From Kordiimonas sp. SCSIO 12603 (GTDB taxonomy: Bacteria; Pseudomonadota; Alphaproteobacteria; Sphingomonadales; Kordiimonadaceae): 64,000 nt of DNA. The stretch spans positions 363,501 through 427,500 of the forward strand of contig NZ_CP073748.1 of assembly GCF_024398035.1 (NCBI RefSeq), read 5' to 3'. Made by a program: the position numbers and the translations under genes. The notes under the pieces are model-generated. The model was not told the origin of the DNA. It did not search any database and saw only the letters and a program-made list of their open reading frames with translations. Numbering within the stretch: position 1 is the first letter of the stretch; every line of letters begins with the position of its first letter. Of this stretch, positions 9,626 to 28,187 are shown one piece after another.

Positions 9626-9634
9626 TGACAATAT

Positions 9635-12252: not shown

Positions 12253-13148
12253 AATCGGAAAAACATACACATTTACACCCAAAAATCAGACACCTGGCAA
12301 CTGCTGGATATCTAGATAGAGAAACAGCTATTGAAAATGATCACTGGCTAGGATACCCGATAGCTAAAAAAGCCATCGAAAAAATGCAGGCATTATTACG
12401 TCACCCAGACACTCATAGAATGCCTAATTTAATCATTTATGGTCCTAGTAATAACGGCAAGACTAAAATCCTCGAAAAATTTCTTCGAGACCACCCTCCC
12501 TCAGATAATGTTGAAGGAGATAGTGCTAGTTATCCGGTAATGTACATACAAATGCCAATAGTCGCTGACCCAAAACGTTTTTACATAGCCATATTAGAAA
12601 AGTTATTCGCCCCCTATAGACCAACCGACAATACAATTCGTCTAGAAACTCAAGCAATACGGCTATTGAAAGCGTGTGGCCTTAAGATGCTAATTATCGA
12701 CGAGTTCCATAACATGTTAGGTAGTCGTCTAGACATTCAGAGACAGTTTTTGAACCTAATTAGATATCTCGGCAATGAACTGAAAGTACCCATTGTGGCA
12801 GCAGGGACTAAATCGGCTGTTAGGGCCCTTCAAATCGATGAACAACTCGCAAATAGGTTTGAGCCGCTCTCCCTACCTTATTGGAGTTTTGATAAAAACT
12901 ACCGAACACTTTTAGCCGGTATCGAAGCTATAATACCTCTAAAATTAAGCTCAAAAATTAGCAGCGAAAGCTTATCAAAAGTTATCTTATCGATGTCAGA
13001 AGGAACAATTGGAGAAACCTTCGACTTAGTTCGACTCGCAGCAATCCATGCAATCAATACTAATCGTGAAAAAATCGATGAAACGATATTAAAATCCTGC
13101 GGATATATTCCACCTTCAGAACGCCGTAAAGCTGCCGAAAAAATCTAG
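12246..13148 (+). CDS. tnsC: TnsC/TniB-like AAA+ target-selection ATPase
   Basis: A 300-residue ATPase with Walker A GPSNNGKT (66-73) and Walker B LIIDEFHN (Asp152, Glu153). It is far shorter than Tn7 TnsC (about 555 residues) and matches the compact TniB-type regulators, whose P-loop also reads NNGKT. It links the TniQ-marked target to the TnsAB transposase and mediates target immunity. The best start is TTG 12246, inside the end of tnsB; no earlier in-frame ATG exists and the conserved N-terminus (HLHPKIRHLATAGYL) begins here. The next in-frame ATG (Met48) would remove it. Confidence 0.9.
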   Translation: MVESEKHTHLHPKIRHLATAGYLDRETAIENDHWLGYPIAKKAIEKMQALLRHPDTHRMPNLIIYGPSNNGKTKILEKFLRDHPPSDNVEGDSASYPVMYIQMPIVADPKRFYIAILEKLFAPYRPTDNTIRLETQAIRLLKACGLKMLIIDEFHNMLGSRLDIQRQFLNLIRYLGNELKVPIVAAGTKSAVRALQIDEQLANRFEPLSLPYWSFDKNYRTLLAGIEAIIPLKLSSKISSESLSKVILSMSEGTIGETFDLVRLAAIHAINTNREKIDETILKSCGYIPPSERRKAAEKI

Positions 13149-13150
13149 TA

Positions 13151-14140
13151 ATGATGAGAGGGTTATCTGGAAACCTATGGCCTCATCACCCTTCTCCGTT
13201 ACCTGATGAAGTCTTCTCTTCCTGGTTAATAAGAACTGCGGAAGTAAACGCCCCTCGCTTACATACTTTTTGTAAATTACATTGGGGTAACACACAGATA
13301 TGGACACGGGACATTGATGTACATGGAGGCAAAAACCTCTTGCAGATAATGTCTGAGAAAACAGGAACCAATTTAGAACTGGCCCGAAACACACTTATTC
13401 AATCTTACGAAGGTACAGTGTTTGAAAAGTTAAATCCTTACGGTACTACAAGATGGGTCTTACCAATTGGAATTCGACATAGAATTCGATATAAATTTGG
13501 GCAACAAATGTGCCCTCTTTGTTTAAAAGAAGACCATATTCCATATTACCGAAAACACTGGCGGTTAGCATTCAATAGCTCGTGCTTACGTCATGGAATT
13601 ATCTTGAACGATCGATGTTGGAAATGTAATTCACCTATTATTCCAAGTCGTAATGGTCTCATCAGCTGCCATGAATGTAAAAGCGCTCATGCAGACGCGC
13701 CAGTAATAATGGGAAACCCACTTGCTCTACAGTTTGAATATCAAATACATCGGTATTTGCATGGAGCCCCCACTAAGCTTGGCATGAAATACATACACCC
13801 AATCATATACTTCGATATTGTTCGGCAACTTTGTAAAGTAATGTCAACTGGCCCTAGATCCCCCGATCTACGAAATAGTATTAATTCAATATTCCATTGC
13901 ACCAGTAACTTCAATAGCAGTGAGAAAGTGTTTGAAAAAATGGACGTCCAAAACCGTCATATCATACTTAGCCTAGTTTATACGGTTATAGAGGGTTGGC
14001 CATTCAAGCTAATTGCAGCATCAATTGCATCTCGAAATTGGTCTTCATGGCTGTTGAAAGATCACAAACCTGGAAGGTTTGATTTGGTTGACCCATCAAA
14101 TAGATATCTTTCTCCTCCACCAACACATAACACTAGATAA
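13151..14140 (+). CDS. tniQ: TniQ/TnsD-like target-site selector
   Basis: This 329-residue TniQ-domain protein starts two bases after tnsC. The N-terminal LWPHHPSPLPDEVFSSWLIR block is the classical TniQ signature. Zinc-ligand cysteines and histidine are at C121, C124, C145, H148, C156, C159, C173 and C176, giving two zinc modules. The C-terminal half lacks the long DNA-binding extension of Tn7 TnsD, so it is intermediate in size between TniQ and TnsD. As the only such protein in the element it is the natural candidate for recognising comM (inference from known TnsD-attTn7 logic). Its last eight bases overlap the end of the convergent TnsE-like gene. Confidence 0.88.
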   Translation: MMRGLSGNLWPHHPSPLPDEVFSSWLIRTAEVNAPRLHTFCKLHWGNTQIWTRDIDVHGGKNLLQIMSEKTGTNLELARNTLIQSYEGTVFEKLNPYGTTRWVLPIGIRHRIRYKFGQQMCPLCLKEDHIPYYRKHWRLAFNSSCLRHGIILNDRCWKCNSPIIPSRNGLISCHECKSAHADAPVIMGNPLALQFEYQIHRYLHGAPTKLGMKYIHPIIYFDIVRQLCKVMSTGPRSPDLRNSINSIFHCTSNFNSSEKVFEKMDVQNRHIILSLVYTVIEGWPFKLIAASIASRNWSSWLLKDHKPGRFDLVDPSNRYLSPPPTHNTR

Positions 14141-15974
14141 CTCTGACGGTACCCAGCATCAAACTAATATGCTCAGCCATATTTCTTGGTTTAGGTTTGT
14201 TTTGGGTAAGGTTTTTTTCAACAGTATAAAAGTCACCATTGAATAGAGTACGATTTGGCCATTTTCCTTTTTTAATTTTCTGATACAGAATCCACGAAAC
14301 ATGTCCCAGCGACAGCCGCTCTAAATCTTTTAAGGAAATTGCAAAATACCTGGGATGAGAGCCACTTTTTTCTTCCAATGCAAAAAAGAAAGCCTTCTGA
14401 GCATGACTTAGCTTAAATTCAAAAAAGACGGCACTTCTTGATCGTTTCTTTACTGTAGCATTAACTCCCCATTCTTCCGGCAAATCAAAAACAACACACT
14501 CTTCATTCCAGTTTGGACCTATGCTTGGCTGATAGATCCCATATTCTCCTCCCAATCTATTTCTAAAATAAGAGACGCCAGACACCATTGTTCTAAGCCG
14601 TTGAGGAAGAGTAATAACATGGGCCGTTCTAATATGTATCAAATGATTGGGTATATCCTCGAAGATCCTAGGAAGCCCATCTCTACTTGAATTCTTATCC
14701 TCTTCATTTTCATCAATATCATTCTTTTTTGAGTTTTTACCCCCTCCCTTAATATGTCCATGGCCAGTATCTCCGCGCCCAGAGGTAGATGTAAAATCAT
14801 TACATTCCTCAATATTATCAACATCGTATCCATGGTGCCCCCCAGAAGAAACTCTAGTAATGGCTTGTTTTTTCTTAATTTTCGCTAATCCAGGACGTCG
14901 TAGCGACATATCCCCACGGTTTAAATTGATCTTAGGCGCATTATTGTCAGCCGGAATATCATCTGTTACGGCAGGAAAGTTCGAGGGCTTGACGATATCT
15001 GTAGGTATACTTCCCACTGAGACAGTAGGGTTATCAATTTTTCTCACTTTCTTACGGGATCTATTTATATAAAGAGTTTTCGCAGCCGCTTCAGATGAGC
15101 AACTTAACAGTTGCGAAACGATATAAGCATCGGTTTCAGTTATCTCATTAGAATTAGCCGCTTGGCCCGACGGGTTCTTTATTCTAATTGCTGCCTTCTT
15201 ACCTCTGATAAGCCAATTAGATCGACCAGAAAAAGGCAACCTAACTATTGGGCAAATATCGTAAGGTGAACGAACTAAAGCTCGAACGCTCTGTGTTAAC
15301 TTAATCAATGATTGTAAGCTAGTTTTGGTAGAAAGGATCGCTCCTAATTCAAACGCACTTGCATCATCTAAAATGGTCTTTGGTGAAATCACGAAGCCTG
15401 GTTTCGGTGATAAATCTTCAGGGTCATCCGCCTTCCAACCAGTCAATTCAGGAATAAATAAATCTTCATTTATCCCATTATCATCAAACCCAAATAGATT
15501 TTGAGCTATCGAAGAAAAACAGCAAAAATAGAATCTAAGTAATTCGCTACATTTGATGATGACTGCCTTATTTTTGCTTCCAAAACCAATACAAAGGTAA
15601 GGGTGTGAATAGCTTTCCACTTCATAACCAACAAAAGAAAGCTGTCCATTTCCCTTGTCTTCCAAGCTTAAAATTCTTTGATCCCAAGAATCGATAGAAA
15701 CTGTTAACTTTTGAATGTATTTACCAACATCTATTCGCTTCCCATTTTTCCATAATGACCCAATAGGTACGTCAAATATCAGCCCGGAACCAATATAAAT
15801 TATCTTATAATAGTTGTTATCACGGACAACGCGCTTACGACTTCGTTTTGCAACTTTATGGATATGAACTTCCCAAGCGACTTCTTCAGGACGATACACT
15901 AATCGCCCTAGCTGAGTTACTTGCCAAATATTATCGTCAACCGGTAACTGCTTTAATCTAAAGTTCTCGGACAT
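14133..15974 (-). CDS. Candidate TnsE-like transposition protein
   Basis: A 613-residue protein not matching any housekeeping family. The N-terminus (W-x-V-T-x-L-G-R-L-V-Y then a W-E-V-H-I strand), a middle helix rich in F and C (ELLRFYFCCFSS), a polar low-complexity linker with acidic and Gly/His/Lys runs (~360-435), and a C-terminal domain ending in a basic helix plus KKGKWPNRTLF (WPN at 572-574) follow the same order as I recall for Tn7 TnsE. TnsE directs Tn7 to lagging-strand DNA of conjugating plasmids by binding the sliding clamp. In Tn7 the gene lies co-directional after tnsD; here it is convergent with tniQ, overlapping by 8 bp. The identity is an inference from remembered pattern, not from a search. 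A strong GAGAG lies upstream of the ATG. Confidence 0.5.
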   Translation of the reverse strand: MSENFRLKQLPVDDNIWQVTQLGRLVYRPEEVAWEVHIHKVAKRSRKRVVRDNNYYKIIYIGSGLIFDVPIGSLWKNGKRIDVGKYIQKLTVSIDSWDQRILSLEDKGNGQLSFVGYEVESYSHPYLCIGFGSKNKAVIIKCSELLRFYFCCFSSIAQNLFGFDDNGINEDLFIPELTGWKADDPEDLSPKPGFVISPKTILDDASAFELGAILSTKTSLQSLIKLTQSVRALVRSPYDICPIVRLPFSGRSNWLIRGKKAAIRIKNPSGQAANSNEITETDAYIVSQLLSCSSEAAAKTLYINRSRKKVRKIDNPTVSVGSIPTDIVKPSNFPAVTDDIPADNNAPKINLNRGDMSLRRPGLAKIKKKQAITRVSSGGHHGYDVDNIEECNDFTSTSGRGDTGHGHIKGGGKNSKKNDIDENEEDKNSSRDGLPRIFEDIPNHLIHIRTAHVITLPQRLRTMVSGVSYFRNRLGGEYGIYQPSIGPNWNEECVVFDLPEEWGVNATVKKRSRSAVFFEFKLSHAQKAFFFALEEKSGSHPRYFAISLKDLERLSLGHVSWILYQKIKKGKWPNRTLFNGDFYTVEKNLTQNKPKPRNMAEHISLMLGTVRVI

Positions 15975-16186
15975 AAATCTCTCAATAAATCCATCATAGA
16001 GAGAATAAATTAAAACCTATAATCGATTACTAACTATTGTTTAAAATTGAAACCATTGAAAGATGTACCCTGAAGGCGAAAAAGTCGTATAAATCTATTA
16101 GATCTATATATGATTAGTTTGGAGAACTAGGTTACTTCGAGTTTTAAAAGAGCTATAGCTTCAATGGTTACAAACCTCATAAACAC

Positions 16187-16216
16187 ACCATCGACGCCCT
16201 AATCTAAACCGATGGT
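16187..16216 (-). terminator. Possible terminator after ImmA/IrrE operon
   Basis: ACCATCG (16187-16193) and CGATGGT (16210-16216) form a 7-bp stem with a 16-base loop, 14 bases past the end of the ImmA/IrrE gene. The T-run on the minus strand is poor, so this is a weak call. The remaining non-coding DNA from 15975 to 16186 shows no clear signal. Confidence 0.3.
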
Positions 16217-16230
16217 ATTTTTCTCAAAAC

Positions 16231-17172
16231 CTACCCCTCAAAGCCAACTAGAGACTTATGAAGTTCTAGAAAATAACCAAAGGTTAAGAGATCATAACCA
16301 TTTGAAAAGGAGTACATATAAAATACACAAGACTCACCATTTAAGTCCGTAAGGATAAGCTCAGTTTCACCAATAGGACCCTTTTTATTTCTGCTTGCAT
16401 ACGTAGAAATTACATTAAAGAGGTCTTCACTTGAAACATGAGAAAATCGCTCTCGGAACGCCTTCGAACGTGGGAAATAAGCTACATTTGAATTGCTCTT
16501 CCTACTGCCAATATCAGAGTGGTAAGGATGTTTGCCAATCAAACCAAATGCGGGATGATCAGGATCCCGTTCACAAACCATATGCCAGAGCGTTGTGGTA
16601 TATGTGTTTCCATACCTATGTTTCAAAGCCTTAATGCTATTCCAACTAAATTTGCAATCCAAAGCTTCTCTTTGAAACAAGTCACCATGAAATATTAGTT
16701 TTCGAGCAGTATAATTTGCTTCCGCTTCCATCATCTGATGACAACCAGGATTAAGTGTATGCTCGTTATCTCCCATCAGTAGAGATCTATGCCATGGCAA
16801 CAAGTCATGGGATATTTCATGTGCAATCAAAAACCGGCGTTTAAGTTGGACAACTTCATCATCGATAAATATTTTTTTATCGTTTTCTTTGAGTAAAAGA
16901 AGACCCCTGAGGCCCGCCTTTTCCACCACTTCAGTCATTTTGCGAGCAGTACCTAATATGGTAGCCCCAGCTAGTTTTGTTTTATGAGCTATCTCATCAA
17001 GTAAATTTAAATCAGTTTTACTATAATATGTTAAATCTAATTTCTGGATTGCTCGAGCTTCCTCCAACTTAATTGGAGGCTCTGGCCAACCTAAATCTCT
17101 AAGCAGTCTATTTACATGTTCTCGAATGTCTTTAGATTCAAACTCGCCAATTTCTGGCTCTAGCATAGTCAT
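16231..17172 (-). CDS. ImmA/IrrE-family metallopeptidase
   Basis: A 313-residue protein with the DUF955/ImmA-IrrE zinc motif: HEISH at 118-122 in RRFLIAHEISHDLLPW and the third ligand Glu149 in MMEAEANYTARKLI. Members cleave their partner XRE-type repressor in response to stress or phage signals (ImmA cutting ImmR, IrrE cutting DdrO). The C-terminal ~110 residues are an added domain that may sense the signal. The gene follows an XRE gene by six bases and is the last member of a four-gene operon starting at 18549. Its expected substrate is the XRE protein next door; a role in processing the ubiquitin-like protein encoded by the divergent operon is also conceivable, since no JAB peptidase is present. 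Confidence 0.85.
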   Translation of the reverse strand: MTMLEPEIGEFESKDIREHVNRLLRDLGWPEPPIKLEEARAIQKLDLTYYSKTDLNLLDEIAHKTKLAGATILGTARKMTEVVEKAGLRGLLLLKENDKKIFIDDEVVQLKRRFLIAHEISHDLLPWHRSLLMGDNEHTLNPGCHQMMEAEANYTARKLIFHGDLFQREALDCKFSWNSIKALKHRYGNTYTTTLWHMVCERDPDHPAFGLIGKHPYHSDIGSRKSNSNVAYFPRSKAFRERFSHVSSEDLFNVISTYASRNKKGPIGETELILTDLNGESCVFYMYSFSNGYDLLTFGYFLELHKSLVGFEG

Positions 17173-17178
17173 ACATTA

Positions 17179-17700
17179 TCAATCTTCAGTATAATTTGAT
17201 AACACCTTTACAAAATCATTCAAACTTCGTCTGTCTTCTGTGGAGAGGCTGGATAAATCATCAGAGCTAGCTGCAAACTGTATGGCAGCTTCAGAAATAT
17301 CATCATGCAAGGTCTTATCATTTAGTGTTAATCTTTGAATTGCTTTCGTAGAAACTTTTAAATAGCTAGCCAACTGATGCATTGTTCTAGGTTTAGGTAT
17401 AAAATTACTATCTTCTTCTATACTTTGTAATTCTACAACATCAACTCGTATTTTTTCAGCAAACTCTTCTCTTGAACTAAAATCTCTTCTGCGAATTTGA
17501 GTTACCAAGACCTTTAAAGCCTTAATTACAGAAGGCTTTTTAACGGATCCTTTTTGATCTTTTTTACAATTACCAATAGAATATAAGAAATCGGCAGAGA
17601 AAACAGGTAGGCCAGCGTCGTTTTCAACGTCTGCATCCTCTCTAATTTTCTTCCTTAACCAGTCTTCTGTAAAATGTAACTTCACTTTAGACCTCCTCAT
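17179..17700 (-). CDS. XRE-type helix-turn-helix regulator
   Basis: A 173-residue protein. A Cro/C1-like helix-turn-helix is visible at about residues 77-122: FSSREEFAEKIRVDVVELQSIEE, then PRTMHQLASYLKVSTKAIQRL. Flanking helices are charged. It overlaps the upstream GNAT gene by 14 bp and precedes an ImmA/IrrE peptidase gene by six bases. The XRE plus ImmA/IrrE arrangement is the standard repressor-protease switch, so this is probably the repressor of one or both operons that share the 18550-18684 promoter region. Confidence 0.75.
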   Translation of the reverse strand: MRRSKVKLHFTEDWLRKKIREDADVENDAGLPVFSADFLYSIGNCKKDQKGSVKKPSVIKALKVLVTQIRRRDFSSREEFAEKIRVDVVELQSIEEDSNFIPKPRTMHQLASYLKVSTKAIQRLTLNDKTLHDDISEAAIQFAASSDDLSSLSTEDRRSLNDFVKVLSNYTED

Positions 17701-18346
17701 TCTGGGTATTGTTAGAATTTAGAAACTCGCTAGCTAACGCCTCAGTAAATTCGAAGTATCTCATTCCGTAATAATTTTTGTCTTCGCCCAAGTCCTCCAT
17801 TTTTAGAACATCTCTATAAAATGTCTCTGCTCCGGACAAAGAATGTAGCCCAATACGGCCTTGGAGTTCTTCCTCTAAACTTAAACTAACAGCAACACCA
17901 ATCAACGCCTGACCAGCCCCCTTAAGAATAGGATTATTAGAAATCATTGGTCTATTCCATGGTGCTGTAGCAAGTAGGTCCACATAGACTTGCGGCATAC
18001 CTTTATGAGCAATGCTACGGCAGAAACAATTTATTCCGCCTTTTTGGACCAGCATTAAAGCTTCGGTCTGTTTCTGGTGCTCTAAAACAAATATATCGTA
18101 CACTAAGGGATTTTGCTCGGCACGTTCGGCTTTACTAACCCACTCCCAATGAGCATCCTGTGCATTAATTTGTTCTCGCGATAACCCATGCTTTTCAGCA
18201 AGGTCCGTCTTTTTCTGAAACTCTGGTTTCCATTTGCTTTCGATATCAGAACGGTTTCCCTCGTCAAACCCGCGGAAAATATCTACATTTACAAACTTAT
18301 TAGTTATTCGATTTAATAATGGAACGACCCCCAAAGGTTCCTTCAT
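17687..18346 (-). CDS. GNAT acetyltransferase, candidate toxin of RHH-GNAT pair
   Basis: A 219-residue protein whose C-terminal ~130 residues have the GNAT pattern: a beta-strand (YDIFVLEHQ), a strand plus WNR (VDLLATAPWNR), the acetyl-CoA loop and helix (GAGQALIGVAVSLSLEE), then GRIGLHSLSGAETFYRDVL and a final strand MRYFEF. The N-terminal ~75 residues are unassigned. Its ATG overlaps the stop of a small ribbon-helix-helix gene (ATGA), the organisation of TacAT-type toxin-antitoxin modules, in which a GNAT toxin acetylates charged tRNA and the RHH protein represses the operon. The extra N-terminal part is atypical for those toxins, so a protein-modifying role with the neighbouring ubiquitin-like operon is an alternative. 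Confidence 0.65.
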   Translation of the reverse strand: MKEPLGVVPLLNRITNKFVNVDIFRGFDEGNRSDIESKWKPEFQKKTDLAEKHGLSREQINAQDAHWEWVSKAERAEQNPLVYDIFVLEHQKQTEALMLVQKGGINCFCRSIAHKGMPQVYVDLLATAPWNRPMISNNPILKGAGQALIGVAVSLSLEEELQGRIGLHSLSGAETFYRDVLKMEDLGEDKNYYGMRYFEFTEALASEFLNSNNTQNEEV

Positions 18347-18549
18347 AAAACCATTAACTCCGCTTTTTCTTTTTTATCTGCACTTTCAATGAACACCTTA
18401 TCTCCTCGGGTAAGGCGGTCATCAACCGATTTATACAGGCGTAGTGATTGGCGAACCAGTGCGGTTTTCGAGAGTCCTTTTGCATCACACAGCGACTCTA
18501 AAACCTTCATCTCAACATCTGTGAGATTCAACGTCATCGTACGTTTCAT
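18343..18549 (-). CDS. Ribbon-helix-helix DNA-binding protein
   Basis: A 68-residue protein. The start MKRTMTLNLTDVEMKVLESLCDAKGLSKTALVRQSL (described as two pieces: beta-strand residues 3-9 and two helices 11-22 and 26-37) is a MetJ/Arc-type RHH fold. The KKEKAELMVL tail resembles antitoxins placed before GNAT genes. GGAG lies ten bases before the ATG. It is the first gene of the leftward RHH-GNAT-XRE-ImmA operon and probably binds the dyad at 18637-18662, thereby also touching the ubiquitin-like operon. Confidence 0.8.
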   Translation of the reverse strand: MKRTMTLNLTDVEMKVLESLCDAKGLSKTALVRQSLRLYKSVDDRLTRGDKVFIESADKKEKAELMVL

Positions 18550-18636
18550 CGGGAATATCTCCTAGCTCACAGCTTACATAATTATCATTTTTTTCAATGT
18601 CAATCAAAAAAAAATGTAAAAATAGCTTGTTTATGG

Positions 18637-18662
18637 CTAATTAATAGCTAATTATTAATTAG
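18637..18662. promoter_or_regulatory. Palindromic operator candidate between divergent operons
   Basis: CTAATTAAT (18637-18645) and ATTAATTAG (18654-18662) are perfect inverted repeats around an 8-base spacer that contains another CTAATT. The site lies 22 bp before the multiubiquitin start and 87 bp before the RHH start, in the only intergenic space serving both operons. Either the RHH or the XRE protein is the likely binder. Confidence 0.5.
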
Positions 18663-18684
18663 AAATTAAAGAAAGGAGAGAGAT

Positions 18685-19347
18685 ATGCCATCTCAAAACC
18701 AATACCAATACCGACTAAATAACCAACTCGTAAACTGTAGCGACCCGATCTTATCCGGGCGCGAAATTCGTTCTTCAGCGGGACTGAACCCCGCGAGCGA
18801 CTATGTTTTAATCGAATTGCTTGACCGTCATTCCAGATCAATTGGCCTTGAAGAGAAATTGGATCTATCCGAGACAGACACGCCAGAGTTACTCTGGTTC
18901 AAAAGCGACCGTGTTTACTCTTACACAGTGAATGAACGAGGCTTTGAATGGGGAGCAAGTAAGATTTCGGTACAGGACATTCGAAAGTATGCTTCCATAC
19001 CAGATACGGAAGATCTAATTTTCGATAGTAAAAAAGATAAGGTTCTGGAACTTGATCAGGAGATCAACCTAAATCGTAAAGGTGTGGAACGTTTTTCATC
19101 TCGAGAACCTGAACAGATTTGTATCTACATAAATACACGCCCTACACTTATTGAACGCGGAAAAGTCGCATTCAAAGCATTGGTAGGCCTAGCCTTTCCT
19201 GACATGCAAGATGGCCCGAACACTTCATATACTGTTAGCTATAGAAAAGGCCACGGAGAGACACCAGAAGGAACAATTATCGAAGGTGAGTTTGTTCGAG
19301 TTAAAAAAGGGATGATTTTCAATGTCACTGCAACTGATAAATCATAG
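18685..19347 (+). CDS. Multiubiquitin protein (three ubiquitin-like domains)
   Basis: A 220-residue protein built of three tandem ubiquitin-like folds: about 6-65 (YQYRLNNQLV...), 68-140 (FKSDRVYSYTV...INLNRKGVERF) and 144-220 (ICIYINTRPTL...GMIFNVTATDKS). This is the prokaryotic Multiubiquitin architecture. The C-terminus ends TATDKS without the diglycine of ubiquitin; that ending recurs in the family as I remember it, so either the E1 adenylates a non-glycine end or processing is needed. A strong AAGGAG precedes the ATG. The E1 gene starts within its 3' end (26-bp overlap). Function in these bacterial systems is thought to be conjugation of the Ubl to targets, probably in antiviral or stress responses. 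Confidence 0.85.
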   Translation: MPSQNQYQYRLNNQLVNCSDPILSGREIRSSAGLNPASDYVLIELLDRHSRSIGLEEKLDLSETDTPELLWFKSDRVYSYTVNERGFEWGASKISVQDIRKYASIPDTEDLIFDSKKDKVLELDQEINLNRKGVERFSSREPEQICIYINTRPTLIERGKVAFKALVGLAFPDMQDGPNTSYTVSYRKGHGETPEGTIIEGEFVRVKKGMIFNVTATDKS

Positions 19348-20500
19348 CCCTGATTTAAAAAAACTGAAAGAAGAAGGGTACGAGGTAACTATTGAGTATG
19401 GGCATCTAGTTATAAGGAACATCCCTTATGTGAATACTCAAAAACAAGTTTGCTTCGGGGCACTTGTCTCCACCCTTAATGTCTCAGGTGATCAAACTAA
19501 TCAACCTGAGACGCATGTTGCCATGTTCTGCGGCGATTATCCATGTGACCCAAAGGGGGCTCCCCTGGATCGTATACGACATACAAGCGCGAAACAAACT
19601 ATCGGCGGTGATATAATCGTCGATCATAGTTTCTCTAGTAAACCAAGAGCAGGGTATAGAGATTATTATGAAAAAATGTCGACGTATGCTTCAATTATAA
19701 GTAATCCTGCCACGGCATTATCACCCAATGTTACGCCCAAAACGCATCGAGTTATTGAAGCTTGTTCGAGAACACCTTTTCAATATTTCGATAACGCATC
19801 AGGACGAGCGGGCATTAGTAATCTATCCCAAAAGCTTGAACTACAATCTGTTGCGATCGTTGGTCTGGGTGGTACGGGGAGTTACGTCTTGGATCTTATC
19901 TCTAAAACACCTGTACAAAACATATACCTTTATGACGGGGATATATTTGAACAGCATAACGCCTTTCGAGCACCAGGCGCTGCTCCTAAAGAGCAGTTGC
20001 TTGAGCGTCCTTACAAAACAGACTACTTCGCTCAAATATACGGGAACATGCATAAAAACATAAAAACAAAAAATGCCTTCATTACTGATCAAAATGTTGA
20101 TGAGCTAATCCAACATGATTTCGTCTTTATTTGTATGGATAGCCGCACAGAAAAGCCCAAGATTATTAAGGTCCTTGAAAACAACAACATCCCCTTCATC
20201 GATGTTGGCATGGGCCTGGAATTAGTTGAAAACGCGTTAGTTGGCACGTTAAGGACCACGATGAGTACACCTCATAAACGGGAACATGTTCATGCTCGAA
20301 ACCGCATCCCCTTAAACAAGGCCGATCATAAGGATGTTTACAGTCAAAATATTCAAGTAGCTGACCTAAATGCACTTAACGCTTGTCTAGCGGTAATTCG
20401 TTGGAAGAAGCTTTATGGCTTTTATCAAGATACTGAAGGTGAGCACTTCAGTCTCTATCATGTAGACGGAAACCATATACTTAATGAGGATTCAAAATGA
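19322..20500 (+). CDS. ThiF/E1-like ubiquitin-activating enzyme, DUF6791 N-terminus
   Basis: A 392-residue protein in two parts. Residues 1-165 match a DUF6791-type domain (HVAMFCGDYPCDPKG, then HSFSSKPRAGYRDYYEKM). Residues 172-390 form an E1/ThiF Rossmann domain: nucleotide loop GLGGTGS (181-187), Asp205 in YDGD, the HNAFR stretch (212-216) and ICMDS (270-274). E1-like enzymes adenylate the C-terminus of a Ubl with ATP. I see no separate E2 catalytic domain in the operon, so Cys70 or Cys75 of the N-terminal domain or Cys271 might carry the thioester (inference). The ATG lies inside multiubiquitin and the stop overlaps the DUF6527 gene, indicating a stoichiometric complex. Confidence 0.85.
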   Translation: MSLQLINHSPDLKKLKEEGYEVTIEYGHLVIRNIPYVNTQKQVCFGALVSTLNVSGDQTNQPETHVAMFCGDYPCDPKGAPLDRIRHTSAKQTIGGDIIVDHSFSSKPRAGYRDYYEKMSTYASIISNPATALSPNVTPKTHRVIEACSRTPFQYFDNASGRAGISNLSQKLELQSVAIVGLGGTGSYVLDLISKTPVQNIYLYDGDIFEQHNAFRAPGAAPKEQLLERPYKTDYFAQIYGNMHKNIKTKNAFITDQNVDELIQHDFVFICMDSRTEKPKIIKVLENNNIPFIDVGMGLELVENALVGTLRTTMSTPHKREHVHARNRIPLNKADHKDVYSQNIQVADLNALNACLAVIRWKKLYGFYQDTEGEHFSLYHVDGNHILNEDSK

Positions 20501-20940
20501 AAAAATCTTCATCTATTACACACTGCTTTGTCGAGAACTTCCCGTCCAAACTAGAAAAAAATACTCTCTATATTTCTTTAGAGTTCGCATCTATGTCTCA
20601 TTTGTGTTGCTGCGGTTGCGGCAACGAAATTGTGACCCCCCTAGATCCCAACGACTGGAGATTAACCTTCGACGGAAAAGCAATTTCAGTGCACCCATCT
20701 ATTGGTAATTGGTCATTAGCATGCCGATCTCATTATATAATTCGTAACAACCAAATTATATGGGCAGAAAATTGGAGTGACGCACAAGTTAAAGCAGGTA
20801 GACAACACGACTTGAAGGTAAAGCGCCAAAAACAGTACGACAACAGTCCCTCATTGAGCAAAGATTCTAACTCGGCAGCTAAAGAATCTGTAAATTCTGA
20901 AAATTGGTTAGTTAAAATCAAGAGGTTCTTAGGCATCTAA
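20497..20940 (+). CDS. DUF6527 small zinc protein of the Ubl operon
   Basis: A 147-residue protein with the DUF6527 core HLCCCGCGNE (Cys37, Cys39, Cys41), a DWRLTFDG strand pair, PSIGNWS and CRSHY (Cys76, His79). The cysteines and histidine suggest one structural zinc, as in a treble-clef or rubredoxin-like knuckle. Such genes regularly follow multiubiquitin and ThiF-type E1 genes. It may act as an E2- or RING-like ligase component; that role is unproven. The basic C-terminal tail (~95-147) is variable. GAGG is seven bases upstream and the ATG overlaps the E1 stop. Confidence 0.75.
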   Translation: MKKSSSITHCFVENFPSKLEKNTLYISLEFASMSHLCCCGCGNEIVTPLDPNDWRLTFDGKAISVHPSIGNWSLACRSHYIIRNNQIIWAENWSDAQVKAGRQHDLKVKRQKQYDNSPSLSKDSNSAAKESVNSENWLVKIKRFLGI

Positions 20941-21062
20941 AAATCGTCTAGCTCGCCCCACAAGAACAAAAAAAGAACATTGACTCACTTATAGCTCCCA
21001 AGTAGCCTAACTAAAGGTGGTTTTTTTAGGCATTATAGTAGCATTTATAGAAAGGCTTTATT

Positions 21063-21932
21063 ATGAAACATATAGCATTAACAGGCTTCCTCATAATTTC
21101 TGCTACATATCTCTCTGAAACATTACAAGCGGAAGATTGTCCTGCTCTCACGGCCAGCCAAAAAGCTAAGTTAATTGATGAACACCTAAACGGGCTGAAG
21201 CCGAGTGATGATGAAATCATTGTACATCGTGGCCATGTTTTTGCATTCGATTATCAGAACAATGTTCCAAGATGGACTGCTTGGCATGTTAAACCTTCTT
21301 ATACAGACACTCCTAAGCGAGAAAAACACTGGTACAAGATGGCTCAAGACAAATCTTTGCCTAAAGCAAATAGAGTAACGAGCAGCGATTATACCGGCAG
21401 CGGATATCACCGAGGGCATCTTGCACCTTACTTCACGTCAGGCGGCGACAGAGACAACGATGGCATGGATGCTGAGTTTGAAAATCTTGATACATTTCCA
21501 ATCGAAGATATAGATGATGCATGCACTGTCTTCGAAATAAATTATATGTCAAACATGGCTCCTCAACTGCCAGAATTAAACAGTCAAAATGGCTCTTGGT
21601 ACCAACTAGAAACTCTAAATCGAATTGCTGCACGCGAGCACGGTAAAGAATTTCATATTATCTCCGGCCCTATTTTCACTTCCTCAAAGCCCAAAACTAT
21701 CTGCAGGAAAAAAAATACAGACGGATCCTGCAAAAGTCGCGAAATCGCTGTTCCAAATGCATTTTTTAAAGTTGTAGACGATGGAGTTACATCCAAAGGG
21801 TATGTCTTTTATCAGCATCAAAAAACAAGTGATTATGGATGTTTACCAAAACAGAATCCTGAGGAATGTATCGTACCCATTTCAGTTATTGAAGACTTAA
21901 CCACTCTTACATTGAAACAGTCCAATAGATAG
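21063..21932 (+). CDS. Exported DNA/RNA non-specific endonuclease (His-Me finger)
   Basis: A 289-residue protein with a signal peptide (1-23, cleavage near LQA-ED). The catalytic motif is YHRGHLAP (His116-Arg-Gly-His119; DRGH in the classical NUC1/EndoG family), with the metal-site region NMAPQ and Asn176 in LNSQNGSWYQLE. Paired cysteines (CRKK...SCKS and CLPK...ECIV) imply disulfide bonds and an oxidising compartment. It should degrade DNA and RNA in the periplasm or outside the cell. It is 11 bp ahead of a lipase gene, forming a two-gene transcript. No immunity protein is recognised next to it. The 122-bp gap before it contains a GCCTAA...TTAGGC dyad near 21008. Confidence 0.88.
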   Translation: MKHIALTGFLIISATYLSETLQAEDCPALTASQKAKLIDEHLNGLKPSDDEIIVHRGHVFAFDYQNNVPRWTAWHVKPSYTDTPKREKHWYKMAQDKSLPKANRVTSSDYTGSGYHRGHLAPYFTSGGDRDNDGMDAEFENLDTFPIEDIDDACTVFEINYMSNMAPQLPELNSQNGSWYQLETLNRIAAREHGKEFHIISGPIFTSSKPKTICRKKNTDGSCKSREIAVPNAFFKVVDDGVTSKGYVFYQHQKTSDYGCLPKQNPEECIVPISVIEDLTTLTLKQSNR

Positions 21933-21943
21933 AGAGTAGTATA

Positions 21944-23047
21944 ATGCCCCAGACCTATTTTGATGCAAAAAACTTGATGACCGCTCCAATCGAAAGAGCT
22001 GCCTTTAGCGATCGCATGGCATATTTGTGTGCCGAACTATCCAAACTAGCGTATTTTAAATTTGAGGGCGGTCACCCATTAGCGCAAGCAACCGAGTTAA
22101 TCGATACCTTTATTACAGACCAAGATAGTGCCGCAAAACTTAAGGAGGGTCTTGCTCTTATCATTACACAAATGCCTGGCACTCAAGAACAGAGCAAAGC
22201 AGTGTTAAAAGAGATCTTGCAAGCAGAGGATTTTACACTGGAAGAAACGTTTTCAATAGGTGGTACACAAGCTTTTATATGTACTCGCTTAGTAAATTAC
22301 CCCAGTGGTAGTACAAAAAAAGTCGCATACCTTGCCTTTAGAGGAACTGAACCGAAAGAGTTTCAAGATATAAAAACCGACATTAACGCCCGACTAAAAC
22401 CTGTTGAATTAGGGAAAGAGACTGTTGAGTTTCATAAAGGGTTTTATGAAGCATATAAATTGGTTGAAAAAGAAATTATCAACACACTCGACAATCTAAA
22501 ATATGACCAACTTTTCATCACAGGTCACTCGCTAGGCGGCGCTTTAGCAATGATGGCAACACGTATATTACCATATGAAATAAGGGGAGCTTGTTACACA
22601 TTTGGTGCTCCTCCTATAGGAACTATTCAAGTCCAAAATGGCCTCAAAACACCTGTGTATGAAATTGTCAATGAAACCGATATTGTACCTTGTCTGCCAA
22701 ATCCTTGGGCAGCTTGGGGTACGATCATAATTTTACACTTAGTTAAATTGCTATTGCGCCCAATTACAGGATTTAATCAATTTGTGTTCGGAGGTAACTG
22801 GGACGAGCGTTTAGTTGAATACATGAAGCAAATGACTAAATACGAACACCCTGGATACTTAAGTTATCTTCAAGGATCTGGAAAAGAAGCTCGGCTGCGG
22901 TATCAAATGAGTTTCTTTAGAAGAGCAAAAATTCGCCTAGGTATATTGTGGAAACAAAAGTTCGGTGGTTTCAAAAAGATGGCGCAAGATCATTCAATTG
23001 ATTTATATGTAGAGAAATTAAGAAATCACGGCGATAGACGTAACTAA
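21944..23047 (+). CDS. Class 3 lipase (alpha/beta-hydrolase)
   Basis: A 367-residue protein of the Lipase_3 family. The nucleophile Ser196 lies in TGHSLGGA, the acid Asp246 in VNETDIVP, and the likely base His350 in QDHSIDLY; the oxyanion region is LAFRGTE. There is no signal peptide. A hydrophobic stretch near 253-270 (WGTIIILHLVKLLL) may associate with membrane. It lies immediately downstream of an exported nuclease. A nuclease plus lipase pair could attack nucleic acid and membrane together, as in abortive defence or interbacterial antagonism, but this is inference. Confidence 0.85.
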   Translation: MPQTYFDAKNLMTAPIERAAFSDRMAYLCAELSKLAYFKFEGGHPLAQATELIDTFITDQDSAAKLKEGLALIITQMPGTQEQSKAVLKEILQAEDFTLEETFSIGGTQAFICTRLVNYPSGSTKKVAYLAFRGTEPKEFQDIKTDINARLKPVELGKETVEFHKGFYEAYKLVEKEIINTLDNLKYDQLFITGHSLGGALAMMATRILPYEIRGACYTFGAPPIGTIQVQNGLKTPVYEIVNETDIVPCLPNPWAAWGTIIILHLVKLLLRPITGFNQFVFGGNWDERLVEYMKQMTKYEHPGYLSYLQGSGKEARLRYQMSFFRRAKIRLGILWKQKFGGFKKMAQDHSIDLYVEKLRNHGDRRN

Positions 23048-23213
23048 TCTCGAAATATTCCATCAAATGGAAACCACATAGATGGTTTTCATTTATTAAA
23101 AAAACGACCAGAGACTAGAAGCATAACAAGTCAGGAATATCGACTTTTTCTAGTCTCGTCTGTGCATTCCTTCATATCTCTCGAGCAGGTAATAGGCTGA
23201 TAACTCAACCAGT
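23048..23213. other. Structured non-coding stretch after the lipase gene
   Basis: Two strong dyads fill this gap. ATGGAAACCA (23067-23076) and TGGTTTTCAT (23083-23092) form a 10-bp stem with one G-U, perhaps the lipase terminator. GAGACTAGAA (23111-23120) and TTCTAGTCTC (23148-23157) are a perfect 10-bp inverted repeat with a 27-base loop, extended by GAC/GTC beyond a small bulge. Function unknown; a small RNA is possible. Confidence 0.45.
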
Positions 23214-23429
23214 TTAATCTGAAGTTTGGTTATTTTTTTGTGTTTCGGCCTGTGTTTCTGGTTGCGATGCTTCGATTTTTACCCCAAATAGTTGTGATGT
23301 GAATTCAATTTTTGCCACACCACCGAAAAGCAAAAGCAATATGCCGCCACCTAAAAAGAAAATGATGGCTGAAACTTTAGGGTGCCGTATAAGCACCTTA
23401 AAAAACTCCTTCGCTAGTTCTTTTTTCAT
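23214..23429 (-). CDS. Small single-pass membrane protein
   Basis: Not recognised. ATG 23429 is preferred over a GTG two codons upstream because AAGGAG is spaced correctly for the ATG. The 71-residue product has a basic N-terminus (MKKELAKEFFKVLIRHPK), one transmembrane helix (~22-40, Gly/Leu/Ile-rich), then a soluble tail rich in Gln, Thr and Glu. Positive-inside rules put the N-terminus in the cytoplasm and the tail in the periplasm. It lies convergent to the lipase gene across a structured gap. It could be an immunity or anchoring partner, or simply a hypothetical. Confidence 0.5.
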   Translation of the reverse strand: MKKELAKEFFKVLIRHPKVSAIIFFLGGGILLLLFGGVAKIEFTSQLFGVKIEASQPETQAETQKNNQTSD

Positions 23430-23708
23430 TACCACTCTCCTTCACTCTTGACTCCTGTATTTGTCCTCCGATATACAGCAGTGCCCTTAGTATACAGGTG
23501 GTTTGAGGCTCTTAAGCGCCTCATTACTAATTAAATCTCCGCGTCACCTTTTCTCATCACACCTACCTGCTCAGGCAAATTTTTTTTTCTGCCATATGCT
23601 AGCCTTTTCTCTCTTTTTCTAAAAAGGTTGCCCAGTATTTTGTTTTTTGGAAAGGTGTATTAAATACAATTTATAGGTCAAATATAGATTCTGCGGGAGA
23701 ATCAATTT
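23430..23708. other. Intergenic region with near-palindrome
   Basis: A divergent promoter region between the small membrane protein and the 493-residue protein. It holds an 18-bp near-perfect palindrome at 23505-23522 (GAGGCTCTTAAGCGCCTC, one mispaired position) and two TATACAG repeats close by (around 23473 and 23491). The rest is A/T-rich without a clear signal. Confidence 0.4.
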
Positions 23709-25190
23709 ATGTATCTGGTTCAAAACGACATTTTAAACGATGAAAAGATTAAATCGGCTCAAAGGATCGAAGCGCTTACAATAGCGGAAGCTATCTTACA
23801 GCAATCATTTGCCATAGTTAGAGCCCTTTGTGAAAAGTGCCCACCAACACTTGACCACACCAATTCCGATTGGAGTGATGACTTTGTATTTTGGAACAAT
23901 CTTTTCCCTACAGAAGAAGAAACCTTTGACAAGATCTATGGAAAGAAAGTCGAGGCCGGCAGAGCTATAAGCCAGCGTAAAACATCTAAATTTAGCGGTA
24001 ACTTCCCAAAAAACTTACATACTAAACTTGTCAAGAAATATGGAAGTGATTGGTCTGAATCAATTGAGTCTGCGTTCGCAGATACAATCGATTCTATTGA
24101 ACAACTCCATAAAATATACCGGAGTCTATCACAGAACAAATTTCTAAAAGATGAGAAAATTCCTGCGCTAGTCGCTAGCTTGCAGGAAATACATAGTGAT
24201 CTTTGCGAAACCGAGCATAAATATATTTTTCCTAATATAAAAACTACCCTGATGGGTTTTGGGGATCTTATCCACGGCGCATTAAGCGAAATGCAAAATA
24301 CTAATGGAGGGTTTTCCCGTAATTTTGATGAAAACGATAAAGGGAGCAGCTTCAATACTGGAGAAATAGGTATAGCCCTTTACACGTGGGAACAATTGAC
24401 TAACCCCACATTATCAAGTCACTGGAATATAGATAAAGCCCAACACTATATCTGGGAAAACCAAGATAAACGATCGTTAATATGGCGTAGCAATCGTTTC
24501 AAAAAAGCAACCGCTCATCCATATAGAACCGCGACAGTATTAAGATTTCTACTACTTGTAAATTCCAACTCTACCACCGAGCTTCAAAAGGCTTTGTCAT
24601 GGAAAGCTTCAGATATAGATGCTTACAGCCATACTGAGGAAATAGTGAACATCTTAAATCTACGTTGTTTAGCTTTGCTATGCGCGGAAGCAAAGAGAGC
24701 CGGAATTCATAAGAAAAGTTATACCGATATATTGCATATCGCTTCTGAGATCGTGGAGAGAGTCGAGGAATTTTGTAAAGAGCGACCAGTTGTTGCCCAT
24801 GAATATGAAAAAAAGCAAAGGGAAAAGCGTCTCGCTGCCGCATATCTATTAGAAGTGGAAGCCGTCGGTATACTCCCAAATTCTATCAGCATCGATAAAG
24901 AATATCTACTTAGATTAATTCACGAACCCGCCGGGAAAAAAAATTATGGCATTTTAACTCTATGGGATGACAAGTCTGAATTTAGACTATGGACTTCTGT
25001 TTTCACAGTTAAAGCTAGAGGCTATGGCAGTAGAGCACTTAAACTCAAAGCTCTTGAAAGCCTTCTCGAACTTGCCCGAAATTGCGTATCACATAATGGG
25101 TTAGTTAAGCCTAACAGAGATCATGGTGCTTGGAACTGGGCAGCAGCCTATCTACTAGAAGCACTCGCAGAGGGCGTATCTTCAATATAA
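23709..25190 (+). CDS. Unknown 493-residue helical-repeat protein
   Basis: Not assigned to a family. The sequence is almost entirely helical. From about residue 200 on, helices pair with aromatic-rich turns (TGEIGIALYTWEQL, KATAHPYRTATVLRFLL, GILTLWDDKSEFRLWTSVFTVKARG, HGAWNWAAAYLLEALAEG), a pattern reminiscent of alpha/alpha-toroid proteins such as terpene cyclases or prenyltransferases, but without a DxDD or QW repeat motif that I can see. No signal peptide or membrane helix. GGGAGA is upstream. A methyltransferase gene follows after 24 bp, suggesting a two-protein unit. Confidence 0.6.
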   Translation: MYLVQNDILNDEKIKSAQRIEALTIAEAILQQSFAIVRALCEKCPPTLDHTNSDWSDDFVFWNNLFPTEEETFDKIYGKKVEAGRAISQRKTSKFSGNFPKNLHTKLVKKYGSDWSESIESAFADTIDSIEQLHKIYRSLSQNKFLKDEKIPALVASLQEIHSDLCETEHKYIFPNIKTTLMGFGDLIHGALSEMQNTNGGFSRNFDENDKGSSFNTGEIGIALYTWEQLTNPTLSSHWNIDKAQHYIWENQDKRSLIWRSNRFKKATAHPYRTATVLRFLLLVNSNSTTELQKALSWKASDIDAYSHTEEIVNILNLRCLALLCAEAKRAGIHKKSYTDILHIASEIVERVEEFCKERPVVAHEYEKKQREKRLAAAYLLEVEAVGILPNSISIDKEYLLRLIHEPAGKKNYGILTLWDDKSEFRLWTSVFTVKARGYGSRALKLKALESLLELARNCVSHNGLVKPNRDHGAWNWAAAYLLEALAEGVSSI

Positions 25191-25214
25191 TGACCCAAAC
25201 TTAAGGACATATAC

Positions 25215-25886
25215 ATGCCTGATCCCGGAAAGACCTGGAAGCTATTTGAAGGTTCAGAAATTCCCTCAAGCGTCAAAAGCTACCCATTGCTTATCCAAAC
25301 CTGTATCAACCGTTCTATTATTGATTTTGGATGCGGGTTTGGCAAAACATGCTTTGAGGTTGCCACGGCAGGAGCAAAGTCTGTTTTAGGTGTCGATATC
25401 AATCAGAATGGCATTAACTTCGCCAAAAGCCATCAACAACAATACAAAGAAAATCTCCCTATTGAATTTTTATGTAAAGATGCAACTAACACCGAGCTGG
25501 CGAACGATCAATTTGACCTAGGAATAATGCAAGCTTTCCTGACAACGTTACCCTCTCACAACATCAGAATCCAAGCCCTTACAGAGGCGAGAAGGCTAAT
25601 AAAATCAGATGGCGGTCTATATTTGGCAGTTTTCATGCAAACCTGGCACAGTAAAACATATAGAGAAAGATACGAAAAAGGTTTGATAGAAACCGGCGAG
25701 GAAGGCTCTTTCTGGGCAACCGATACCAACACAAACAAAAAAGTCTATCAAGCCCATCACTTTAGCGAAAAAGAACTTATCTACTTACTAAATACGACAG
25801 GATTTGAAGTAAAAAGTTTTACTTACGAAAAATTCCAAACTCGAACTGGAAACTATGTAAATGGCGCTGTAATTTGGGCAGAATGA
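25215..25886 (+). CDS. SAM-dependent methyltransferase
   Basis: A 223-residue class I methyltransferase. Motif I is DFGCGFGKT (37-45), the SAM-ribose acid lies in GVDINQNG, motif II is KDATNTELANDQFDLGIMQAFL, and a post-core HFSEKELIYLLNTTGFEV segment is typical of small-molecule or protein methyltransferases of the Methyltransf_11/25 type. There is no target-recognition or NPPY motif, so it is unlikely to be a DNA methyltransferase. It follows the unknown 493-residue protein closely and probably acts in the same process. It is convergent with the DUF2971 gene, eight bases apart. Confidence 0.85.
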   Translation: MPDPGKTWKLFEGSEIPSSVKSYPLLIQTCINRSIIDFGCGFGKTCFEVATAGAKSVLGVDINQNGINFAKSHQQQYKENLPIEFLCKDATNTELANDQFDLGIMQAFLTTLPSHNIRIQALTEARRLIKSDGGLYLAVFMQTWHSKTYRERYEKGLIETGEEGSFWATDTNTNKKVYQAHHFSEKELIYLLNTTGFEVKSFTYEKFQTRTGNYVNGAVIWAE

Positions 25887-25894
25887 ACCATGCA

Positions 25895-26533
25895 TTAAAG
25901 CTTGCGTGTATCTAGCTGCTTTACCGCACTTTTCCATCTTTCATTTTCGACCAGTGTTGATCTATTTAGCCTGATGTCAGTATCACTAGGTATCAGACTA
26001 GCCAATACATCCTTTATACAATCTGACAAGCTTTCTGGCATCCAAGGACTAATATGAATCCTTTTTATAGTCGATAATTCGAAGGGCACGTCATAAACGG
26101 GTTTATCACCATTTGAACAACCATAGATTAATCTAAATTCACCTTCGTCTCGATACGGGAAGCGCTTTAAAAAAGGTAAGTCATCTCTATGTCTGGCAGC
26201 CTCAGTGATATCTTCTATTTTCTTATAAAGAACAGGCCTCGCTATAACGCCTTGCTTTTCAACAGATTTTATAAGTTTTTGTTTATCAAATTCGATACAA
26301 ATACCGTCTGTCCCTCGCGCAAAAATACTCCAATGATGATATGTTTCTGCTTCTGTAGTCATACACAAAGCAAACACTTTGTTTAAACGATTTAACTCAG
26401 CATATCGTTCCAAGAAATATGTATCATTCCGATCATCCCATGAGCCAGGATCTAATAAAGTGATCTTGCGATGCTTCAGAATATGTATAATTGATGCAAG
26501 GTTCGTATAACGCTTTAAAAAACCGCCTGTCAT
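25895..26533 (-). CDS. DUF2971-family protein
   Basis: A 212-residue protein with the DUF2971 layout: an N-terminal YTNLASIIHILKHRKITLLDPGSWDD block (read as two adjoining parts), FALCMTTEAETYHHWSIFARGTDGICIEFD split by the HHWS turn, and a late RDEGEFRLIYG segment. The biochemical function of DUF2971 is unknown. Members are common in mobile elements and defence islands. It is divergent from a small orphan gene. Confidence 0.72.
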   Translation of the reverse strand: MTGGFLKRYTNLASIIHILKHRKITLLDPGSWDDRNDTYFLERYAELNRLNKVFALCMTTEAETYHHWSIFARGTDGICIEFDKQKLIKSVEKQGVIARPVLYKKIEDITEAARHRDDLPFLKRFPYRDEGEFRLIYGCSNGDKPVYDVPFELSTIKRIHISPWMPESLSDCIKDVLASLIPSDTDIRLNRSTLVENERWKSAVKQLDTRKL

Positions 26534-26619
26534 ATTATTCCTTTTGCAAACTTATTGCTGCTCTGTTTCGCTTTTACCAGCTTCAGAGCGTAGTAAAATA
26601 TAGCTCCAACGAGGCCCCC

Positions 26620-27027
26620 ATGGTGGACGAAAATAAATCGATTATAAAAATTGCATCCGACTACAATGAAAAAGATCTTATCAATAACATTGATAGATAT
26701 ACGGATGATTGTGACAAATGGTACATTCTAGGAGCGATTTGCCAAGTACTATGCTTCTGTGCGTTCGATGAAGAAAACCCTCCCTACAAATTACACGCCG
26801 AGACAGCCAAGGCCTTCAATTTAGGTCTTAAATCGCATCATGGAATAAAAATTATTTCAGCTTTGATAAAAACCAAAAGAACTAGTCAATTATCTCAATT
26901 TATAGAATTGCTGCCAATAGCGTTGCAAAATAACGCTTCTCAAGAACTTACAAAGATTATTGACCAAAAATCCTGTGCCGCTAGCGCAGATAAATTTCTG
27001 TATGGAGAGGATGGTTTACCGAAATAG
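26620..27027 (+). CDS. Small protein of unknown function
   Basis: Not recognised. ATG 26620 (MVDENKSIIKIAS...) was chosen because GAGG lies six bases upstream and earlier in-frame starts would overlap the divergent DUF2971 gene. The 135-residue product is helical, with several cysteines in ICQVLCFCAF and a KSCAAS near the end, and no membrane helix. It may be co-regulated with DUF2971 through the 86-bp gap. Confidence 0.5.
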   Translation: MVDENKSIIKIASDYNEKDLINNIDRYTDDCDKWYILGAICQVLCFCAFDEENPPYKLHAETAKAFNLGLKSHHGIKIISALIKTKRTSQLSQFIELLPIALQNNASQELTKIIDQKSCAASADKFLYGEDGLPK

Positions 27028-27123
27028 CTGACCTCTCCATACTCAGGTAGTGCAAGTTGTTTCACTGTCCAGGCAAATCAAATGCGTTATTCACATATAA
27101 CAACAGGTATACTGTTTTCAAGA

Positions 27124-28178: not shown

Positions 28179-28187
28179 GAATTCACA

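Follow-up and report, generated by a model that had tools for sequence, protein, structure and literature searches.

How might a bacterial ubiquitin-like (Ubl) protein be activated and passed on when its tail holds no Gly-Gly and neither an E2 nor a JAB gene is seen beside its E1-like enzyme? This question is raised by a three-gene operon at 18685..20940 of a 64,000-nucleotide (nt) stretch of Kordiimonas sp. SCSIO 12603 (contig NZ_CP073748.1, positions 363,501 to 427,500), hereafter the window, where it is carried by a Tn7-like element inserted in comM. The reading towards which we lean, at slightly better than even confidence, is that the operon forms a mobile, stress-regulated Ubl conjugation cassette related to the Bub pathway, which would use the native Ubl C-terminus and dispense with a separate E2-like protein.

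The first gene (18685..19347, +) encodes a Ubl protein that matches Pfam Multi_ubiq (E 1.9e-33) in three stretches (about 18706-18873, 18919-19101 and 19123-19338, +) and ends in FNVTATDKS. It is followed by an E1-like gene (19322..20500, +), with DUF6791 at residues 10-157 (E 8.9e-57) and a ThiF adenylation domain at residues 169-297 (E 5.8e-15), and by a DUF6527 gene for a putative zinc protein (20497..20940, +; Pfam E 2.5e-25). The Ubl and E1 genes overlap out of frame by 26 nt (19322..19347, +), a segment coding for both the Ubl tail and the E1 N-terminus, and the E1 and DUF6527 genes overlap by 4 nt; all three frames are open. These open reading frames and Pfam matches bear out the first-pass annotation of the window, which had named the three families and both overlaps, and had described a Ubl ending in TDKS without Gly-Gly and an operon with no E2 or JAB in sight. 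No E2 or JAB Pfam model matched the three operon genes or the scanned neighbours. It was noted that the E1 falls in the NCBIfam group PRK06153 (E 3e-157), named merely 'hypothetical protein', and that C37, C39, C41, C76 and H79 of the DUF6527 protein were invariant in 12 aligned sequences.

Homologous loci were gathered by E1 alone, which gave 41 loci (13 genome contigs, six hits in the class other than the window, and 22 of 115 plasmid records picked for diversity) and 42 with the window, itself numbered L001-L003. Removal of the near-duplicates L009, L011, L025 and L030 left a non-redundant set of 38 loci, and the dual-coding comparison covered 37, with L044 also taken out for its shifted E1 start. 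Every one of the 42 loci carried a Ubl gene upstream and a DUF6527 match downstream of E1; since E1 alone had been used to collect them, the three-gene association exceeds chance. In L040 the DUF6527 gene seems to be broken by an annotated insertion of the IS256 family. Taxonomy and record titles place the loci in Pseudomonadota, Actinomycetota, Bacteroidota, Bacillota, Cyanobacteriota, Verrucomicrobiota, Myxococcota and Chloroflexota. At 41 of the 42 loci, the E1 gene begins out of frame with the Ubl gene and overlaps its end by exactly 26 nt; the exception, L044, lacks the usual start codon and has an annotated overlap of 41 nt from an upstream start in the same frame as usual.

Among the non-redundant loci, the tail consensus was roughly F-N-V-T-x-T-[D/G]-[K/Q/R]-S. 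The last Ubl residue was Ser in 37 of 38 (Ala in L021), Gly-Gly occurred in the last 12 residues of none (0/38), and the third residue from the end varied (D 16, G 9, V 5, others 8). From this conservation down to the final residue, we infer that the terminus may be used as made, with no trimming to an inner glycine. Within the E1, D205, D207, R216, K232 and D273 were invariant (42/42), the first of these being the residue that had earlier been proposed for mutation; R216 and D273 count as adenylation residues by analogy with MoeB. DUF6791 occupied the E1 N-terminus in 37 of 37 scanned N-terminal regions, and E2 or JAB Pfam models gave no match there at E <=5, HMMER filters applying. No JAB was therefore fused to E1; the JAB hidden Markov model run on the flanks missed the Bub controls, so that the negative covers fused JAB only. 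An E2_E profile likewise matched none of the 42 loci, and found both Bub controls, which are among its own seven sequences.

An operon of this kind has been known since 2006, when Iyer, Burroughs and Aravind described the 'domain X' variant of operon type 6e (PMC1779556), and the JAB-less form, which the first-pass annotation had set against the usual operons with an E2 and a JAB peptidase, is thus not unexpected. In the accessible part of that article, the variant has polyUbl tandem repeats, an uncharacterised E1 N-terminal domain replacing JAB, a predicted zinc protein and a sporadic spread, all as here; the same part assigns it no tested function and mentions neither a 26-nt overlap nor a Ser tail. 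The one to three PF14452 repeats of the type correspond to the three stretches in the window, and its non-JAB N-terminal domain to DUF6791. That DUF6791 is domain X is our inference, the accessible text giving no domain X sequence for comparison. For the type as a whole, though not for every member, it also lists an inactive E2/RWD-like domain; the E2_E profile found none in the 42 loci. Against the zinc signature C-x3-C-x35-38-H-x2-C, the window fits C37-x3-C41-x37-H79 without the Cys at H+3, and has C76-x2-H79. The operon is filed here under the domain-X variant, as kin to the Bub pathway. Our literature search, with subscription papers such as Gong 2025 and Ye 2026 outside its scope, found no mechanism for the domain-X branch and no description of the 26-nt overlap or the Ser tail, and none of the papers covered names DUF6791 or DUF6527. 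The three-gene linkage at all 42 loci, the fixed overlap, the Ser tail without Gly-Gly and the apparent selection on that tail would be new here, although their absence from print is weakly supported.

The Bub pathway itself (Gong 2025 and Ye 2026, as cited in the accessible part of PMC13373217; PDB 9ea4, 9ea5, 9ea8, 9eae and 9eav, by title) was represented by two loci, L063 of Citrobacter, with 88% identity between its E1 segment and the solved BubCD, and L064 of Synechocystis pSYSX. Each has Multi_ubiq and DUF6527, an E2-like component in the form of a domain or a gene, and an E1 whose N-terminal region is JAB-like (hhalign probability 78 for the two regions jointly against Prok-JAB). The E1 and DUF6527 proteins of the window match those of Bub (hhalign 98.8 and 96.6, respectively), and its DUF6527 protein is homologous to the Synechocystis and Citrobacter proteins. 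Three of the five parts in L063 and L064 are therefore held in common, namely the Multi_ubiq Ubl, the E1 adenylation domain and DUF6527, whereas the E2-like BubB and the JAB-like E1 N-terminal region are particular to Bub, and the window has DUF6791 in the latter position. The tails also differ, that of Synechocystis ending in TTTEG as against TDKS, and in L063 it is the Ubl-E2 gene and the E1 gene that overlap, by 4 nt. Bub transfer chemistry is of the oxyester type. A solved multi-ubiquitin domain protein, 9cd2, aligns over residues 9-220 and also ends in TDKS. Ubl homology extends to BilA of Bil (PDB 8u38, E 6e-10); Bil, however, is a full E1-E2-DUB set, and the operon in the window has only three genes.

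We then considered how the operon may be controlled. Divergent from it lie genes for a ribbon-helix-helix (RHH) protein (18343..18549, -; RHH_1 E 5e-4, just below cut-off), a 219-aa protein with no family assigned (17687..18346, -), a helix-turn-helix (HTH) protein that is a candidate CapH-like repressor (17179..17700, -; HTH_19 E 1.6e-4, below cut-off) and an ImmA/IrrE (CapP-like) metallopeptidase with a HEISH motif (16231..17172, -; PF06114 E 0.0017, below the Pfam cut-off; PADLOC capP E 1.6e-12, a partial match to the model). The pCAR3 operon (L044) has counterparts of all four beside it, likewise ordered, at 63, 35, 31 and 35% identity, and the RHH protein is 75% identical to its counterpart in L023. 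The 135-bp divergent promoter region holds an inverted repeat (18641..18669; 14-nt arms, 86%) that may be an operator. No sigma-70-like match was found in this region, and the two found across 18500-21100, as against 6.7 expected, both lie within genes of the other strand.

Across the loci, an immune regulator of the DNA-damage-responsive type adjoined the operon at 20 of 42, the window included (19/38 non-redundant). An ImmA/IrrE gene was beside 15, a WYL gene beside two and a HATPase (CapK-like) gene beside three, two of which have a winged-helix partner. The weakest of these calls are L006, supported only by HATPase_c at E 0.0068, and three loci, L019, L020 and L021, supported by phmmer scores of 27-37 bits and an HExxH motif read by eye; L016 rests on the HExxH motif and likeness to L014, and L040 on annotation and motif. 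In L018, a WYL gene some 6 kb upstream was left uncounted, as that locus is counted under ImmA/IrrE. Both Bub-type loci have neighbours to compare, HTH and ImmA/IrrE genes in L064 and a winged-helix gene with an unnamed gene in L063. A Synechocystis study of 2016 reported, in its accessible part, that 70% of PF14452 proteins adjoin a COG2856/DUF955 'toxin' and read this as a toxin-antitoxin module (PMC4963859). The accessible part of a 2026 paper instead reports CapW or CapH with CapP at 219 of 544 Bub operons, and CapK with CapS at 59, as DNA-damage-responsive controllers (PMC13373217). For the window, control of the CapH and CapP type seems likelier than a toxin-antitoxin module, given the divergent orientation of the ImmA/IrrE and HTH genes and the partial resemblance of the former to the PADLOC capP; two further genes stand between this pair (16231-17700) and the operon, and the matches are weak or partial. 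In CapH and CapP regulation, ssDNA activates cleavage of the repressor. At L022 and L042, a divergent RES-Xre gene pair occupies the place that ImmA/IrrE has elsewhere.

On the conjugation-cassette reading, the divergent ImmA/IrrE and HTH/RHH genes would repress the operon in the absence of DNA damage or some comparable signal, and the association with regulators of this type suggests when any activity might occur. The ThiF part of the E1 would then adenylate the terminal Ser of the T-[D/G]-[K/R/Q]-S tail, with no processing and no Gly-Gly required. The acyl group would be handed on inside the E1, where DUF6791 is the most probable partner or transfer domain, and the DUF6527 protein would select or hold targets, to the presumed benefit of the host. 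The first-pass annotation had left the transfer step to the E1, its N-terminal domain or DUF6527. DUF6527 makes a poor stand-in for E2 because the E2-bearing loci L063 and L064 carry it too, an argument resting on those two loci, and DUF6791, which is present where E2 and JAB are both missing, appears to be the better candidate. By eye, its H65-x9-C75 is in register with BubB-type E2-like sequences, and this H-to-C spacing is the same as in eukaryotic E2s. A stronger form of the proposal, in which one DUF6791-E1 both activates the Ubl at its C-terminal Ser and performs the transfer, the Ubl C-terminus and E1 start being locked into a 26-nt dual-coding segment across eight phyla, is offered tentatively and as somewhat doubtful. 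The predictions are sharp since the Ser-ended tail seems to be selected for itself and the E1 has no E2 to receive the Ubl: the native Ubl C-terminus should be the substrate, and the transfer step should sit in the E1 or DUF6527. If true, this would be Gly-free and E2-free Ubl conjugation, and informative on the origin of such systems.

Several observations weigh against this account. No regulator of the type was found at 22 of the 42 loci, although the upstream sequence covered for L005 and L015 extends only about 1 kb from the Ubl gene, and many of the regulator matches are below Pfam cut-offs. The literature search returned no biochemistry for the domain-X variant, and Ser is an uncommon C-terminal residue among E1 substrates. 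C75 was Cys in 38 of 42 loci (His in L020, L043 and L044; Tyr in L021), so a C75 thioester would not be universal. In a comparison of DUF6791 with Prok-E2_E that covered just seven E2 sequences (one fragment, L070, having been dropped), the hhalign score was 13.0, while 60 shuffles reached as high as 19.5 and the reversed alignment 20.9; this gives no support to an E2 but does not disprove one. DUF6791 was also tried as a JAB and rejected, its hhalign score of 16.3 against 24 Prok-JAB sequences being noise next to the BubD control (36.6, probability 78). Finally, the invariant Y340 (42/42) aligns with BubCD Y362 and not with Y370, the residue mutated in 9eav, gap placement being unsure.

The strongest alternative, which we regard as a serious contender somewhat short of even odds, keeps the same chemistry and changes its purpose: conjugation or Ubl filaments would alter repair or stress proteins, making the operon a stress or DNA-repair response and not an anti-phage system. 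In its favour, a sigma-70-region-4-like gene, a gene for a protein of about 190 aa and a UvrD-type helicase gene adjoin the operon at eight loci (L017, L026, L029, L030, L032, L033, L035 and L036), and L007 has an SMC/Rad50-like neighbour. Seven of these eight (the near-duplicate L030 being outside the tree), together with L019, which has the UvrD match only, make up one E1 clade (support 100/99). The same regulator types are, however, reported beside CBASS, BREX, Pycsar and DISARM in the accessible part of PMC13373217, and Tn7-like elements are reported to be rich in defence cargo in that of PMC8649781, in the main text of which, as accessible, the words ubiquitin, ThiF and comM are absent. 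A role of the operon in anti-phage defence is unproven. In L026, a Rhizobium beringeri plasmid, the sigma/UvrD set is divergent and points to another multiubiquitin gene, oppositely oriented at a distance of about 6 kb from the first and cut by the end of the retrieved sequence (L026:1-608).

MccB is an E1-like enzyme that acts on a peptide without Gly-Gly, and it supplies a second, unlikely alternative, in which the E1 would adenylate the Ubl and alter or cap its C-terminal residue with no target conjugated. MccB and other peptide-modifying E1-like enzymes have the adenylation fold in common with the window E1, and MccB-type enzymes act on non-Gly C-termini; of the structural matches other than Bub, MccB was one of the first (Foldseek 3h9q, E 1.2e-8). 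Conservation of the exact terminal residue and the empty E2_E search would also suit this alternative. BubCD nevertheless outranks MccB in fold, DUF6527 is common to the window and the Bub loci, and MccB-type enzymes are not known to have a Ubl partner or a DUF6527 protein.

The overlap itself could be mere translational coupling frozen by descent, with nothing functionally special in the Ubl tail. Overlapping gene ends are frequent in operons, and the overlap constrains both reading frames. We nevertheless judge this improbable, as the overlap is kept down to 34% E1 identity to the window and the base changes within it fall unevenly. The last ten Ubl columns had a mean entropy of 1.24 bits as against 2.00 bits in the remainder of the C-terminal domain. 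Over the 37 loci, substitutions silent for Ubl that change E1 were accepted in 1879/10768 cases (0.174), those silent for E1 that change Ubl in 1081/8866 (0.122), and those altering both proteins in 1695/16784 (0.101); the counts are pairwise among related sequences, and the difference is descriptive, with no tested probability. The last Ubl sense codon had T at base 1 in 36/37 and C at base 2 in 37/37, with A 15, G 15 and T 7 at its third base, a variation that swaps His, Arg and Leu at E1 residue 8 while the Ubl Ser is kept. This pattern of base changes suggests that selection acts on the Ubl tail itself. A Ubl-E1 frameshift fusion was separately considered and set aside; with respect to the Ubl, the E1 is read in the +1 frame, with no obvious slippery motif, judged by eye only.

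The mobility of the cassette was examined through its carrier. The element spans 18,562 bp (9626..28187), has the ends TGACAATATCAAAAG and TGTGAATTCCAAAAG with repeated CAAAAG-type motifs inside, and is flanked by 5-bp ACCGC copies at 9621..9625 and 28188..28192. Its left part encodes a TnsA-like endonuclease (9680..10540, +; PF08722 E 4e-15), a TnsB-like transposase (10537..12252, +; PF09299 E 1.1e-9, rve below cut-off), a TnsC/TniB-like ATPase (12246..13148, +; PF05621 E 4.1e-69) and a TniQ/TnsD-like target selector (13151..14140, +; PF06527 E 2.7e-24). The interrupted comM has its 5' (N-terminal) part at 28193..29030 (-), in an open reading frame of 28170-29030 that extends into the element, and its 3' (C-terminal) part at about 8925..9625 (-). 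An uninterrupted comM was present in the same-genus genome G395 (locus L046), where positions 6-2343 matched window 30526-28188 at 94.6% and positions 2331-3849 matched window 9633-8115 at 97.0%. Three further 5-bp identities near the joints were also listed by the script, and ACCGC was preferred as the only one to give TG/CA ends and to agree with the break in homology. The intact comM of L046 and the ACCGC duplication therefore make the operon cargo of an 18.6 kb Tn7-like element, with TnsA, TnsB, TnsC and TniQ genes, a 5-bp duplication and an empty site all found. This bears out the proposal that the ubiquitin-like module is mobile, being carried by a Tn7-like element within comM.

A search for other Tn7-like carriers, as had been suggested, gave one clear second case, the Klebsiella plasmid L035, in which TnsD (E 1.5e-16) and a TniB-like ATPase adjoin the operon; its TnsA and integrase are known from the record annotation only, the integrase being without a Pfam match. 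A possible third, L039 of Streptomyces, has a TnsB-like integrase and an ATPase, with no TniQ match. DUF6791 was found in 1/29 genomes of the family, the sole carrier being the window's own genome, and in 7/385 genomes of the class with the window's own counted, from which the operon is patchily distributed and was probably acquired recently. The E1 tree places the window with L023, a copy on a Rhizobium plasmid (62% identity; support 100/99), and its alpha- and gammaproteobacterial rows do not keep together, the pattern expected under horizontal spread. A related E1 occurred in 115 plasmid records, 45 of them from Acinetobacter and many of those near-identical, and 83/115 were typed conjugative or mobilizable. 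Among viruses, tblastn gave no match in 50,697 phage records (E 1e-5), and a pattern scan of viral contigs, which detects close relatives only, gave none either. That the operon is decaying or silent cargo in the window genome is very unlikely, for although its occurrence in 1/29 family genomes and the promoter region without a sigma-70-like match would fit, the three frames are open and the window E1 retains the residues invariant in the other 41 loci.

Some further features of the tree and the element were noted. A deep E1 branch unites L020, L021, L043 and L044 (support 100/99), with Ubl tails of TGQS, TGQA, TGQS and TGES, respectively. Convergent with tniQ, a gene at 14133-15974 (-) encodes a 613-aa protein with no match in Pfam, PADLOC or NCBIfam at E <=0.1, which could be a TnsE-like or accessory gene. 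Downstream of the operon, the cargo includes a DNA/RNA non-specific endonuclease gene (21063-21932; PF01223 E 7e-30) with a signal peptide-like start by eye, and a class 3 lipase gene (21944-23047; PF01764 E 3.7e-23) begins 11 nt after it. In contig 4 of another same-genus genome, G402, the comM match is split at about residue 195-198 into halves 17.6 kb apart (L061 and L062; 10070-10663 and 28261-28524), from which comM may be struck repeatedly, at different sites.

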